Assembly (NCBI GenBank): GCA_026989655.1
Contig: JALSIX010000024.1
Coordinates: forward strand, 1 to 64,000
From: Caldilineaceae bacterium
GTDB taxonomy: Bacteria > Chloroflexota > Anaerolineae > Caldilineales > Caldilineaceae
DNA: 64,000 nt
Reading direction: 5' to 3'
The notes beneath the pieces are model-generated. The model made no database searches, was not told the origin of the DNA, and was given only the letters and a program-made list of their open reading frames with translations. Made by a program: the position numbers and the translations under genes. Each line of letters opens with the position of its first letter. Within the stretch, counting starts at the first letter, position 1. Below are positions 4,524-11,685 of this stretch, in pieces.

Positions 4524-5192
4524 ATGGCCCAGGAGATCCCCCTGCATGCCATGGAGCCGAGATCGGCCAGGGGCCCTCGGGAGGACGCCCGGGCGAACCG
4601 GGCCCGCATCCTGGCGGCCGCGCAGCAGCTCTTCGAGGAACGGGGCGTGGCCCAGGTCACCATGGCCCAGGTGGCCCAGGCCGCAGGGGTGGGCAAGGGC
4701 ACCCTCTACCGCCACTTCGAACACAAGGGCGCGCTGTGCCGGGCCCTGTTGGACGCGCACTTCCGGGCCCACCAGGACGCGGTGCTGGCCCGTCTCCGGG
4801 CCCTGGCCCAGGAAGGCACCCCGGTTCTGGAACGGCTCCGCTTCTTCCTGCAGGAGAGCGTGGCCTTCATCCACGAACACCTGGCTCTCCTGTGCGAGGT
4901 CCAACGGGCGTACGGCATCAGCCCGGTCGAGGACGCGCCCATGATGCAGTGGCTTCGGCTCACGTTGGCCGGCCTGCTGCGGACGGGGACACGTACCGGT
5001 GAGATCGATCCGGCCCTGGATGTGGACCTGGCCGCGGATCTCCTCCGCGCGCCCCTAACCGCGGCCTACATCCGTCATCTCCACGAACGTTCGGGATATG
5101 GCCTGGACGCGATCGCCCAGGGGATTCTGCGCCTGGTGGAAGGCCTGCGGCCGGCGGCCCGTCCAGGCCAGAGGCTGCCCTCAGGGGGGTGA
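4524..5192 (+). CDS. TetR/AcrR family transcriptional regulator
   Basis: This 222-aa protein has the usual TetR layout. The N-terminal helix-turn-helix covers residues 24-72, including ARILAAAQQLFEERG and GVGKGTLYRHFEHK. The C-terminal all-helical ligand-binding and dimerisation domain has no recognisable ligand signature. A Shine-Dalgarno-like GGAGAAAGGG precedes the ATG. It is divergent from the CDGSH gene, with two related palindromes between them, so it most likely represses that gene and itself. The 3' end overlaps the 3' end of mfd by 12 bp (convergent genes). Confidence 0.9.
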   Translation: MAQEIPLHAMEPRSARGPREDARANRARILAAAQQLFEERGVAQVTMAQVAQAAGVGKGTLYRHFEHKGALCRALLDAHFRAHQDAVLARLRALAQEGTPVLERLRFFLQESVAFIHEHLALLCEVQRAYGISPVEDAPMMQWLRLTLAGLLRTGTRTGEIDPALDVDLAADLLRAPLTAAYIRHLHERSGYGLDAIAQGILRLVEGLRPAARPGQRLPSGG

Positions 5193-8100
5193 TTCCTGGG
5201 CCCCCGCGGGGGCATCCGCCCGGGTCTCCGTCGCGAAGTCTGCGGCCAACCACGACAGGACACGGATCAACGTCTCCTGCCACCGTCCCTCGGTGTCCAC
5301 GGGGATGTAGATGGCCTCCTTGCCCACGTGGATCTCCGCTGCCGGGATCCAGCGGCCCTGGCCTGGGTCCATGTAGCCCAGCCGCGTGCGCAGCCGGTGT
5401 TGGAGATCCCGGCGGTTGTCCTCGGTGAGGCCTGCCCAGTGGATCGCGATCTGGTCTCGCCGGCGGCCGATCTTGGGCACGGCGGCCTGGAGGGCCAGGT
5501 TCTTCACCCGGATCTGGTAGAGAAGGCCCTCCACCGGCCGGGGCACCGACCCGGTCTCCGGATCCTTTCCGAACCGATCCACCAGCTCCTGGCGCATCTC
5601 CTGGAGCTCCACCTCTGTGGTCAGCCCGGCAATCCGTCGGTAGAGCTGGAGGCGAAGGTCCGGATCCGCCACATAGGCCTCTGGGATCTCGGCCGTCACG
5701 GGCAGGTCCAGGGTGATGGGCGGAGCCAGGGGGTTCTCCGGAGAGAAGGGCAGGTCCGGGGGACCCTCCGGCGCCTCGGAGGCTGCGTCCGGGTGTCCGG
5801 CGTCTGCCCGGGGCCGGTCTCGCCGTTTCTCCCGGAGTTCGTTGACCGCCTGGGCCAGCAGCCGAGTGTAGAGATCGAAGCCCACCGCGGCGATCTGGCC
5901 GTGCTGTCGGGTGCCCAACAGCTCGCCAGCCCCTCGGATCTCCAGGTCGCGCATGGCGATCCGAAACCCCGCGCCCAGGGTCTCGCTGCTCTCCAACAGG
6001 GCCTCCAGGCGGCGCCGCGCGTCGAAGGAGAGGGACTTGTGCCGTTCGTAGAGCAGGTAGCAGTAGCCCCGGACCGCGCCCCGGCCCACCCGGCCCCGAA
6101 GCTGGTAGAGCTGGGCCAGGCCGAAGCGGTCGGCCCGGTTGACGATCATGGTGTTGGCCCGCCGAATGTCCAGGCCGTTCTCCACGATGGTGGTGCACAC
6201 CAACACGTCGATCTCCCCGTCCGCGAAGGCCAACATGACCCGTTCCAGCTCCCGTTCGGCCATCTGGCCGTGGGCCACGGCCACCCGGGCCTCGGGCACC
6301 AGCCGCTGGATCCGTCTGGCCAGCATCTGCAGCCCCTGTACCCGGTTGTGGACGAAGAAGACCTGGCCGCCCCGCTCCAGCTCCCGTTGGATGGCCTGGC
6401 GGATGAGGGTCTCATCGTACTCAGACAGGATGGTGCGTACCGGCTGCCTCTCCTGGGGCGGCGTGGTGATGGTGCTCATGTCCCGCACCCCGCTCAGGCT
6501 CATGTGGAGGGTCCGGGGAATGGGCGTGGCGCTCAGGGTGAGAACGTCCACCTGGGTACGGAGCTGTTTGAGCCGCTCCTTGTGGGCCACGCCAAAGCGT
6601 TGTTCCTCATCCACGATCAGCAGTCCCAGGTCCCGGAAGACCACGTCGGCGCTGAGCAGTCGATGGGTGCCGATGACGATGTCCACCGTGCCCTGGGCCA
6701 GGCCCTGGAGGATCCGACGCTGTTGGGCCGGGGTGCGGAACCGGGAGAGCATCTCCACCGCCACGGGGAAACGGGCCAGCCGCTGGCTGAACGTGCGATA
6801 GTGCTGCTGGGCCAACACCGTGGTGGGCACCAGGACGGCCACCTGTTTGCCGTCCACCACCGCTTTGAAGGCTGCCCGAATGGCCACCTCGGTCTTGCCA
6901 TAGCCCACGTCGCCGATGACGATGCGGTCCATGGGGCGAGGCGCCTCCATGTCCCGCTTCACCTCCTGGATGGTCCGAAGCTGGTCCGGCGTCTCCGGAT
7001 AGGGGAAGGTGGCCTCCAGCTCCTCCTGCCAGGGACCATCGGGGCTGAAGGCGTGGCCCTCCACCACCATCCGTGCCGCGTAGAGGGCCAGGAGCTCCTC
7101 GGCCATCTCCTCCACGGCTCGTCGGGCCCGGGCCTTGGTCAACTGCCAGTCCGCGGTGCCCAGCCGGGTCACCACAGGCGGGCGGTTCCCCTCCCCTGGG
7201 CCCACATACCGGCTCAGGCGGTCCGCCTGGTGCACGGGGACGTAGAGCCTGTCCCCGTGGGCGTACGCGATCCGCAGGTACTCCCGGGGCACACCGTCCA
7301 GCTCCAGCTTGACCAGCCCTTCGTAGCGGCCGATGCCGTGCTCGATGTGGACCACGTAGTCGCCGGGCTTGACGTCGGCGAAGAAGAGCTCTGGGGCCAC
7401 CTTGGAAGGGGGTCGGGTGGCTCGGGGGGGCGTGGGCGCCTTCTCCCAGCCGAAGAGCTCGTTGTCTGTCAGGAGGACGAAACCCGTCCCCGGCTCCTGG
7501 CCCCGGAGGATGCACCCCTCGGGGTGGCGGCCGGAGAGCAGGGTGATGCCCGGGGGAGGTCCGGAAGGGAGATCCCCCTGCGGGGTCGGAACCCGACCCG
7601 TCTCCTGCAGATCGGCCTGGAGACGGGCCGCCTGCTGGCTGACGAGCACCACCGGCTCGCCCCGCCGGAGAAACTTGTCCAGATCCCGGAGGAGGACCCG
7701 GGTCTTGCCTGCATAGCGGGGAGATGGGGCAAAGGCCCGGGCCAGCTCCCCGGGCTCGGAAGGGGCCGAGCCATCCAGGCGACCAAAGCCCAGGAGCAGG
7801 GGGCGGTGCTGCGCCAGTGTGGCCAGGAGCGCCGAGACGTCCGCGTGGCTGCTGCGGAACCTCCCGGGGACCTCTCCACCCCGGCGCAGCTCCTGGTAGG
7901 TCCGCTGAGCCGCGGCCTGGGCCTCCTCCATCTCGGCCCGGAGATTGGTCGCATCGTCCACCACCACCAGCGCATGGCCGCCCAGGTAGTCCAGCAGGGT
8001 GGCCGGCCGGGCATAGAGATAGGGAAGGTACCACTCCATGCCCCGGAAGGGGCGCCCTTGGGATAGGGCATCCACCTCCGCCGCGATCTCCTCCCGGATG

Positions 8101-8924
8101 GCCGGGAGGAGCTCCGGATCGTCGAGCACACAGCTCGGGGTTCCGTGGCCCAGTCGCTCCAGGGCCCGGGGCCCATGCCCGGGGAGGGCCTCGCTCCCGG
8201 GCCCGATGTCCACCCGGTCCACGGCATGGACCGTACGCTGGGTGGCCGGGTCGAAGACACGCAGGCCCTCCACCTGGTCGCCGAAGAGATCCACGCGGAT
8301 GGGATGGAGGAGGTTGGGAGGCCAGACGTCCACGATCCCTCCCCGGCGGGCAAAGGTCCCGGGTGCCTCCACCACCTGGGTCTGCTCGTAGCCCATCTCC
8401 ACCCAGGAGCGCAACAGGGCATCCAGATCCACGAAGGCGCCCGCGCGCAGGGGCCGCATGGCCAGGCGGAGCTCTCGGGGCGGCAGGGTGACCTGGAGGA
8501 GCGCGGGAACCGAGGCCACCACCACCGGACCCGGATCCCGGTTCCGGTCCGCCAGCGCGGCCAACACGACGAGCCGTTCCTGGCGGGTGCCATCGGCCCA
8601 CAGGATCCGCTCGTAGGGCAGGGCTTCCGGTGGGGGGAAGTGGAGGAGAGCGCGTCGGTCTGCCTCTGCCCGGGGGAGATAGCTACGCAGGAGATGGATC
8701 CAGCGCTGGGCCTGCTCCCGGGTATCCGTGAGCACCAGGATAGGACCGGGATGTTCCTGGGCCAGGGCGGCCACCACCAACGGCCGCGCGGCCACCAGCA
8801 TCCCCAGGGGTTCCCTGGGGCGCTCCTGGGCAAGGGCCCGAAAGGCCGGGTGACGCCGCAAGGGCTCCACCAGGCCCACGAGACAGACGGGTTGCGGCGC
8901 GCCGTCCGGGGAAGAGGCACACAT
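5181..8924 (-). CDS. mfd: Transcription-repair coupling factor Mfd
   Basis: This superfamily 2 DNA translocase (1247 aa) removes RNA polymerase stalled at lesions and recruits UvrA. It starts with a UvrB-like region ([11 protein letters not shown], '[12 protein letters not shown]'), followed by the RNA-polymerase-interacting segment ([16 protein letters not shown]). The helicase core has Walker [10 protein letters not shown] near residue 670 and the DEEQ box near 770. It then has [25 protein letters not shown] and a TRCF-type C-terminal domain. It is somewhat longer than typical Mfd (about 1150 aa), with an extended segment before the last domain. The ATG at 8924 is chosen over an upstream TTG; no strong ribosome binding site is visible for either. 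Confidence 0.96.
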
Positions 8925-9045
8925 GGGAGGCAGGAGGCTATATCCGGTCCATCCAGACCCGGTCCATACAGACAGATCATCCACGCAGACACACGCCAAC
9001 GGGGACGACGGCGACTCCGGGCAGGTTCCATCCCCGGAGCCTGAC

Positions 9046-9708
9046 CTACCGGTTGAAGCGGTTCATCGCCCGATCGATGCCCTGGAAAAGCCAACACTCC
9101 ACCGCATCGGCCACCTGCTCCCGCACCGGGCCGAACAGGGCCTCCTCCTCGTCGGTGAAATCCTGCAACACATAGTCCGCGGGGTCCATCCCGGGCGGCG
9201 GCCGTCCAATGCCTACCCGGATACGGGGGAACTCCTGGGTGCCCAGGTGTTGGATGATGGACTGGACACCCCGCTGGCCGCCGGAACCCCCTTTGGGCCG
9301 GATCCGGATGCGCCCGGGGGGCAGGTCCAGATCATCGTGGATCACCAGGATCTCCGCCGGCGGCACCTGGTAGTACCGGGCCAGCCCGGACACAGCCTGG
9401 CCACTGTGGTTCATGTAGGTCAGGGGCTTGACCAGAAGGGTCCGTTGTTCCTGGGGAAGCGGACCCCAGCTCCCGGCTTCGGAGGTCCCCGAAGCCGGAG
9501 CCGACCATCCTCCAGTCCCCTTGGACCGAAGCCCGGTTCCCTGTCCCCGGATGAGGCCTGTGCCCACCAGGGCCTTGTGCTGGATCCGATTCAGGGGAAT
9601 GTGATGACGCCGGGCCAGGATATCGATGACCTGAAAGCCGATGTTGTGGCGGTTGCGAGCATAACGTGGGCCTGGGTTGCCCAGGCCCACGATCATCTTC
9701 CATTTCAC
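9046..9708 (-). CDS. pth: Peptidyl-tRNA hydrolase
   Basis: This cytoplasmic enzyme (220 aa) recycles tRNA by cleaving peptidyl-tRNA released from stalled ribosomes. The start (GTG at 9708) gives [13 protein letters not shown], the typical family N-terminus. The catalytic His21 lies in RNRHNIGF, Asn100 in TYMN, and Asp125/126 in [11 protein letters not shown] Gly/Ser-rich insertion of about 30 residues (55-88), absent from most homologues (about 190 aa), separates the first strands. The usual GGxGGHNG motif reads GGSGGQRG. It is upstream of mfd on the same strand with a 121-bp gap. Confidence 0.95.
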
Positions 9709-9797: not shown

Positions 9798-10646
9798 TCA
9801 TTCCATCCGGGCCCACAGGAAGTCCAACAGGCGCCTGAGCCCCAGGATCCCGCCCCCCAGGAGGAAGAGCAGGGCCGACCAGCGCACGCCTCGGAAGAAG
9901 GCCTCCCGGAGACGGGACAGCCCCACCGCCGCACCCAGCTCCTCGGCCAGGGGATTCGCCTGCCCCGCCGGGGCCACCACCTGTGGCTCATCGCCAGGGC
10001 CCTGGGGACCGAAGGCCAGGGGTTCCGGGGTAGGGGTGGGCGTGGGGGGCTCCTCGACCTGGGGCTGTTCCACCTCCACCACCACCGGGGTAGGCTGGGG
10101 GATGGGTGTGGGCGTGGCCACGGGAATGGGCGTAGGGGTGGGCTCATCCGGTGTGGGAGTGGGCGATGGCCCCGTGTTGACCAGGATGTTGGGCGCGAAG
10201 AACTCGCCGTAGTTCCCGTCCGGCCGCACCACCCGCAGACGCAGCGTGTAGGTGCCCGGGGGCAGCCCAGCCGTGTGCCAGACCCCAAGCTGGCCGTTGA
10301 CCACCTGCCGGGTATCGCCGGCGAACCAGATGTAGGACTCGTCTCCGCTGGGCTCCTGTTTGAAGTAGAGCTCGTAGCGGGCAAAGGGTTCCCCGGCCGC
10401 GGTGCCCAGGATGGGCACGGAGCCGCTCACCACGCTGCCCGGGGCCGGAGAGGTGATGCCGGACTGGGGCTGCTGAGCCCAGAGGAGTTCCGCTCCGGGC
10501 CCGGCCAGAGCCCACAGCGCGATCGCAGCCAGCACGGCCAAGAGCCCCGGAAGCCCCGAGACCCGGCTTGGCCGACGGGGAGAGGGCTGCGGTCCCCGGC
10601 CCTGGCCGAGGCGATGCACGGGGTACATGGATCGGGTCGTGTTCAT
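9798..10646 (-). CDS. Membrane-anchored Ig-like protein, coupled to the DsbB-cytochrome c gene
   Basis: This 282-aa protein is of unknown function. A hydrophobic segment at about 31-50 acts as signal or anchor. It is followed by an Ig-like domain (GITSPAPGSVVSGSVPI through LRLRVVRPDGNYGEF), a TPTP-type linker, and a C-terminal membrane helix (about 258-276) with basic residues after it. It resembles surface proteins with a stalk and a C-terminal anchor. The ATG at 10646 overlaps the stop of the upstream fusion gene (ATGA), so the two are co-translated. It could be a partner or substrate of the disulfide-forming system, but no cysteines are present, which argues against a redox role. Confidence 0.8.
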   Translation of the reverse strand: MNTTRSMYPVHRLGQGRGPQPSPRRPSRVSGLPGLLAVLAAIALWALAGPGAELLWAQQPQSGITSPAPGSVVSGSVPILGTAAGEPFARYELYFKQEPSGDESYIWFAGDTRQVVNGQLGVWHTAGLPPGTYTLRLRVVRPDGNYGEFFAPNILVNTGPSPTPTPDEPTPTPIPVATPTPIPQPTPVVVEVEQPQVEEPPTPTPTPEPLAFGPQGPGDEPQVVAPAGQANPLAEELGAAVGLSRLREAFFRGVRWSALLFLLGGGILGLRRLLDFLWARME

Positions 10647-11569
10647 GGATTCCATGCTCGGATCACCCGGACAATGGCCCCCAGTTGTTCGTCCGTCAGG
10701 TCCGGCCGCCCTCCGCTGGGGGGCATGGCCACCCCGCTCCGGTTGTCCGGCGCATCCGCCGGGCGCCCCGCGCGGACCATGGCCACCAGCTCCTCCTCGC
10801 TCCGCTCGCGAACGAACGGGGAATCCACCAGGCTGTTGCCCAGCCCGGGCAGCCCCCGGCCATCCATCCCATGGCAGGAGGCGCAGACCTCCTGGTAGAG
10901 CCGTTCGCCCTCCAACAGGGCCATGGGATCCTCCCCTGCAGGGGTCAGCGGGCCACGAAGGGGGGCCGGCTCGAAGGTCGATGGCTCGGCCGTTGGCCCG
11001 GCAGTGGCCTGGTTCAAGGCCAGGGCCGAGTACCAGGCCAGGCTGAAGATCGCCACACCGGCCACGGGGACCAGCTCCCGGCGGTGCCATTGGGGGCGAT
11101 GGTCCTCGGGATCGGGCACCCCCTGACTCAAGGCCACCAACATGGCCAGGGTGATCACCAGAAAGGCCACCATGGCCAGAAACGGGATGGTGACGAAGCC
11201 GAACCAGTTGATCCAGGTGGCAGAACAGGGCACCCCCACGGTGCAAGCCCGGGCCGCGAAGAGGTCGGTCTTCTGCAACAGGTAGTGGTAGGTGGACACG
11301 CCCTGGCCGATCAGGGAGAAGGGCAACACCAGATAGGGCAGGTGGACATCCTGGCGCAGGACGCCCAGGGCGATGATCCCGGCCAGCGGGTACATCAAGA
11401 TCCGCTGGACCCAGCACAGTTCACAGGGGACAAAGCCCCGGATCTCGCTGAAATAGAGGCTGCCCATCATGGCCGTCCACGCGGCCAGCAAGGCCACGTA
11501 GAGGCTGCCCCGCCCCACCCGATCCACGACCTCGTCCGAGATCGCCTCGTCTGCCGCGTCGCTGAACAC
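10643..11569 (-). CDS. DsbB/BdbC-like disulfide oxidoreductase fused to cytochrome c
   Basis: This 308-aa membrane protein joins two redox modules. The first half has four helices and the DsbB motif PCELCWVQR (C49, C52), then a second cysteine pair (C109, C115) in the next outside loop. These are the two pairs used by DsbB to reoxidise DsbA-like thiol oxidases. After a fifth hydrophobic segment (about 166-188) and a Pro-rich linker comes a class I cytochrome c domain with CASCH (229-233) and a likely distal Met282 in MPPSGG. DsbB normally passes electrons to quinone; here a tethered heme could accept or relay them. The GTG at 11569 is chosen because GGAGAGAGG precedes it. Confidence 0.85.
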   Translation of the reverse strand: MFSDAADEAISDEVVDRVGRGSLYVALLAAWTAMMGSLYFSEIRGFVPCELCWVQRILMYPLAGIIALGVLRQDVHLPYLVLPFSLIGQGVSTYHYLLQKTDLFAARACTVGVPCSATWINWFGFVTIPFLAMVAFLVITLAMLVALSQGVPDPEDHRPQWHRRELVPVAGVAIFSLAWYSALALNQATAGPTAEPSTFEPAPLRGPLTPAGEDPMALLEGERLYQEVCASCHGMDGRGLPGLGNSLVDSPFVRERSEEELVAMVRAGRPADAPDNRSGVAMPPSGGRPDLTDEQLGAIVRVIRAWNP

Positions 11570-11685
11570 CGTGCCTCTCTCCACAGACCGTCTGGACGAA
11601 ACGGCTTGCTTCCCGGCCTGACAGGGGCTGGGACCGGCTCCCAGGCTCCCCTTGAACCCCTGTCGTACTTGCGCAACTCCTCGGG

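Follow-up and report, generated by a model that had tools for sequence, protein, structure and literature searches.

Bacterial disulfide formation is known to end in quinone, by way of DsbB or VKOR, whereas mitochondrial disulfide formation ends in cytochrome c by way of the unrelated Erv1. A gene in the window analysed here (the whole stretch of 64,000 nucleotides, from a member of the Caldilineaceae) joins a DsbB to a cytochrome c in a single reading frame, and raises the question of whether a bacterial thiol oxidase might pass its electrons to a heme of its own.

The gene occupies positions 10643–11569 on the minus strand, as do all the features given below with window coordinates. It runs for 308 codons without an internal stop, from a GTG start at 11569 to a stop codon at 10643–10645, and encodes a protein of 308 residues. 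A ribosome-binding-like sequence, GGAGAG (11577–11582), lies 7 nucleotides before the GTG; the open frame extends upstream of this start, probably owing to the G+C-rich DNA. Pfam recognizes DsbB (PF02600, 40.4 bits against a cut-off of 22.1) followed by Cytochrome_CBB3 (PF13442, 42.9 bits against a cut-off of 27), and NCBIfam assigns the first part of the protein to PRK03113, a BdbC-like disulfide oxidoreductase (146 bits against a cut-off of 124). The PF02600 and PRK03113 matches mark a BdbC-type four-helix DsbB domain (residues 23–146; 11132–11503). Its first redox pair, C49-x-x-C52 (11414–11425), lies in the first outside loop within the motif PCELCWVQR, and R56 (11402–11404) is the counterpart of Arg48 of E. 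coli DsbB, which binds quinone (PMC3839904). The second pair, C109 and C115 (11225–11245), lies in the second outside loop and is expected to face DsbA. Beyond a fifth transmembrane helix (residues 166–189; 11003–11074) comes a class I mono-heme cytochrome c domain (residues 219–303; 10661–10915), matching PF13442 and PF00034, with the heme attachment motif CASCH (C229, C232 and H233; 10871–10885) and, in an MP motif, the candidate distal heme ligand M282 (10724–10726). From these motifs the domain is predicted to carry a covalent, redox-active heme. Every feature tested places the fusion protein in the DsbB family; what is new is the added part. The initial annotation had read the locus as a complete DsbB module in one frame with a CASCH cytochrome c and a candidate methionine ligand, and the open reading frame, Pfam and NCBIfam all agree with that reading.

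An AlphaFold2 model of the fusion (mean pLDDT 83, pTM 0.70) combines five long helices with a cytochrome fold. Four of the helices make up the DsbB part (residues 3–43, 50–71, 77–100 and 128–148). Linker residues 192–206 are the only stretch below pLDDT 50, which leaves the heme–cysteine distance unfixed in the model. Foldseek matched the first part to DsbB structures (6wvf, 2k73 and 2zuq, the ubiquinone-bound one included) and the second part to cytochrome c domains, with a probability of 1.00 but weak E-values (0.014 for the best DsbB match). DsbB has four helices and both termini inside, and heme is attached outside, so a cytochrome c domain at the C-terminus needs a further helix to reach it; the modelled fifth helix, which would put the domain outside, is what this topology requires. 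In relatives the helix is variable in sequence but hydrophobic. Chloroflexales DsbBs that have no cytochrome already possess it, and in that region of the tree the anchor may therefore predate the fusion.

We surveyed 60 relatives of the window's genome, of which 36 are from the same family and the nearest include Litorilinea aerophila MAGs. The DsbB and cytochrome c halves are present in one frame in 34 of the 36 Caldilineaceae genomes (40–59% identity), which, together with the two Pfam matches standing in order and over their cut-offs, bears out the proposed domain architecture. Of the two exceptions, G002 is incomplete, and in G010 the C-terminus is disrupted: the fusion gene there (L033; G010:C472) has lost its C-terminal part from a point not far beyond the fifth helix, but keeps its place, flanked by the DsbA gene and the following cluster gene. 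In an alignment of 17 fusions, in which the relatives are 37–55% identical to the window's protein, the invariant positions include C49, C52, Q55, R56, C109, C115, C229, C232, H233 and M282, among them the motifs of both domains picked out in the initial annotation. The linker between the halves, by contrast, varies freely in length and sequence. Two functional domains joined by an unconstrained tether show just this pattern. In one genome, the Litorilinea aerophila MAG ZH-03apr19-129 (L008 and L052), CAACR stands in place of the heme motif CAACH, which may be a sequencing error or a loss of heme. Across an even sample of 400 Chloroflexota genomes the one-frame fusion occurs in 8, the window's own included, from the Caldilineaceae and a Thermoflexales family (f4), and DsbB alone occurs in about 60. 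Most Chloroflexota and Bacillota relatives have a DsbB to which no cytochrome is linked.

DsbB is linked to cytochrome c in other ways within the class. An Anaerolineaceae MAG, NAT123 (L075, 4947–5876), carries a DsbB of a clade different from that of the Caldilineaceae fusions, fused to a different type of cytochrome c that has the heme motif CTACH, matches PF00034 and gives no match to the profile of the other fusions. In another member of that family, NAT290 (L059), the cytochrome is of the same type as in the Caldilineaceae, but the DsbB falls with strong support inside a clade of stand-alone DsbBs. A tree that forces all 44 same-type fusions into one clade is rejected (p-AU 0.016), and is not rejected once L059 is left out (p-AU 0.251), in a test that was chosen after the tree was seen and that uses a short DsbB alignment. 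Finally, in two species of one genus, belonging to another family than the Caldilineaceae, the gene immediately after dsbB encodes a lipoprotein mono-heme cytochrome c (L171:6305–7168 in G426; L167:1056–1974 in G203). These adjacent genes represent the pair in unfused form. The other stand-alone DsbB loci, which are mostly from Bacillota and Chloroflexales, showed no cytochrome c gene next to them within a distance of about 1.2 kb. The initial annotation had taken separate genes in homologues as a sign against the fusion; such genes do exist in these two species, but their direct adjacency supports a functional link. The sequences indicate that DsbB and cytochrome c came together on more than one occasion within the class; that this pairing recurs, and by differing routes, speaks more strongly than any other evidence for the two working together.

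This recurrence also weighs against one alternative, that the protein is an ordinary quinone-reducing DsbB whose C-terminal helix merely anchors a general cytochrome c of the respiratory chain, the two activities being uncoupled. Cytochromes c anchored to the membrane are common, the fifth helix of the cytochrome-free Chloroflexales enzymes offers a ready anchor, and with R56 and the entire DsbB core unchanged the free quinone pool may be reduced as usual. However, an anchoring role leaves several separate linkages of dsbB to differing cytochrome c types unexplained, and the adjacent lipoprotein cytochrome c has an anchor of its own and needs none from DsbB. We regard this alternative as unlikely. 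Fusion and adjacency would also be compatible with regulation, in which the heme acts as a redox sensor that turns DsbB activity up or down with the state of the cytochrome pool, but the domain resembles an ordinary electron-carrying class I cytochrome with His/Met ligands, and no sensor-like feature was seen in Pfam or Foldseek; we consider a sensor very unlikely.

The gene order in relatives is a DsbA-like protein, the DsbB–cytochrome c fusion, an Ig-like membrane protein, pth and mfd. The window keeps the fusion, the Ig-like protein (9798–10613; a Big_7 match below the cut-off), pth, encoding peptidyl-tRNA hydrolase (9046–9708), and mfd (5181–8999), the last two named from recognizable sequence. 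The DsbA-like neighbour in relatives is a membrane-anchored Thioredoxin_4 protein (105 bits) with the active site CPAC or CPHC, and its gene lies beside at least 27 of the 46 distinct fused loci, some of the remaining loci being cut by contig ends. We looked for a DsbA gene beside the window's fusion and found it absent. The place where it would be, upstream of the fusion, is taken by a divergent gene, methyltransferase-like by sequence, which gave no Pfam match for the stretch scanned.

A check of the window's genome for DsbA homologues, as the initial annotation had suggested, found several DsbA-like proteins, all on other contigs. Two of them have an in-frame TGA at the first active-site cysteine: one on C139 (L168; G000:C139:30556–31239, minus strand; DFQ-TGA-PFC), which of all proteins of this genome best matches the DsbA encoded alongside the fusion in relatives, and one on C140 (L170; G000:C140:10712–11185, plus strand; DFL-TGA-TAC). 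The other DsbA-like domains of the genome read CPWC or CPFC. Because the genome encodes a tRNA-Sec (73.6 bits, over the cut-off) and SelA (476 bits), both proteins are probably selenocysteine DsbAs; DsbA-like selenoproteins are already known (PMC1794560). Hairpins lie 3′ of both TGAs, the C139 hairpin being no better than those of shuffled sequences (z −0.21). Two further genes each encode two tandem DsbA-like domains, with active sites CPWC/CPFC (G000:C67:10576–11673; L169) and CPFC/CPFC (G000:C140:9153–10301; L170), and the first of these is about 2 kb from a CcmF-like gene.

That last location would suit a link to cytochrome c biogenesis, in which DsbB oxidizes apocytochrome cysteines and the fused domain is substrate-like or a chaperone; E. 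coli DsbA and DsbB are needed for some cytochrome c assembly (Sambongi and Ferguson 1996, as cited in PMC4460558). However, the heme ligands of the fused domain are invariant, the methionine included, so that it looks like a mature cytochrome, and the fusion adjoins pth and mfd and not ccm genes. We consider this explanation very unlikely. An artefact of assembly or frame, which genomes that are mostly metagenome-assembled might invite, is ruled out by the occurrence of the same architecture, with its catalytic and heme residues invariant, in dozens of assemblies, the single-contig genome G031 among them.

The respiratory setting bears on where thiol electrons could go. The window's genome, which is 99% complete, has one DsbB, the fusion, and no VKOR was found in it. 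Cytochrome bd was not found there either, and three COX1 genes each have a CuA-bearing COX2 nearby; cytochrome c assembly proteins are encoded as well. A search of the genome for bc1 or alternative complex III returned only two NrfD proteins. With no quinol oxidase found, thiol electrons bound for oxygen probably pass through cytochrome c or an equivalent carrier. Elsewhere in the genome (G000:C114:47742–48444), two short COX1-like proteins (frames of 142 and 138 residues) are encoded beside a gene that matches the cytochrome half of the fusion.

We consider it likely that the fusion is a thiol oxidase of the DsbB type that carries its own cytochrome c as an outlet, and that in it electrons pass from DsbA through the DsbB cysteines and a bound quinone to heme c and on to an oxidase. 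DsbA-like proteins outside the membrane would give electrons to C109/C115, which would reduce C49/C52, and these in turn the quinone held by R56. The quinone would then pass single electrons to the covalent heme c, which, held outside by the fifth helix, would reduce a CuA-type cytochrome c oxidase directly or via a soluble cytochrome c. By analogy with known enzymes, the steps as far as quinone would follow established DsbB chemistry; that quinone hands on to heme, the order of transfer, and the role of the heme as the electron outlet of disulfide formation are what we infer from the architecture and the genomic association. Thiol oxidation releases two electrons at once and heme accepts one, a mismatch that Erv1 bridges with FAD. 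A quinone at R56 is the natural candidate to do the same here, splitting two-electron thiol oxidation into one-electron steps, and this role fits the invariance of R56. That invariance also suggests that the bound quinone is still used, with the heme probably coming after it; a heme that simply replaces quinone is not favoured on the same ground. The original proposal that disulfide electrons go straight to cytochrome c therefore stands in part. Three findings back the link itself, namely the separate linkages, the DsbA gene that adjoins the fusion in relatives, and a genome in which cytochrome c oxidases are the only ones found, but a quinone is probably still interposed. Against a coupled role count the majority of Chloroflexota and Bacillota relatives, whose DsbB has no cytochrome, and the lack of a DsbA gene next to the fusion in the window's genome.

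A broader proposal, which we put forward tentatively, is that in part of the Chloroflexota disulfide formation may feed directly into the cytochrome c pool through DsbB's own heme c, a link gained several times, so that the quinol:cytochrome c step is by-passed; in the window's genome this route may be fed by selenocysteine DsbAs. The mechanism could be tested with one expressed protein, in which heme reduction is visible by colour.

A search of a collection of open-access papers returned nothing relevant on a DsbB–cytochrome c fusion or on disulfide enzymes of Caldilinea. With DsbB and BdbC (PF02600; PRK03113) the fusion shares the four-helix core, the CxxC and second cysteine pair, the quinone-binding arginine and, in relatives, a DsbA gene beside it; it differs in the fifth helix and in the domain outside with its predicted covalent heme c. 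Its C-terminal domain belongs to the same class as the mono-heme domains of CcoP and Cytochrome_CBB3, but here the single heme sits on a DsbB membrane part. Fusions of VKOR with thioredoxin (LTO1 type) likewise join a thiol oxidase to a redox partner, although that partner is the upstream thiol protein and here it is the downstream cytochrome. The closest described extension of DsbB that we found is DsbI of Epsilonproteobacteria (NF050065), which likewise extends a DsbB-like core by a periplasmic domain at the C-terminus, but in DsbI this domain is a beta-propeller and the second cysteine pair is missing (PMC4460558).

The likeness to mitochondrial Erv1/ALR with Mia40 would be one of function only, in that thiols would be oxidized and the electrons go to cytochrome c; Erv1 hands electrons to cytochrome c according to Allen 2005 and Dabir 2007, as cited in PMC4307334. 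A Pfam scan of the whole fusion protein found no match to the FAD-binding Erv family. Erv1/ALR has a fold unrelated to that of DsbB, to which it has, to our knowledge, no homology, its cofactor is FAD, and its cytochrome c is a separate protein. If DsbB does use an attached cytochrome c, it would be a bacterial counterpart of the route from Erv1 to cytochrome c, with bound quinone in the part of FAD, and would show that a simple gene fusion is enough to give oxidative folding a different electron outlet.
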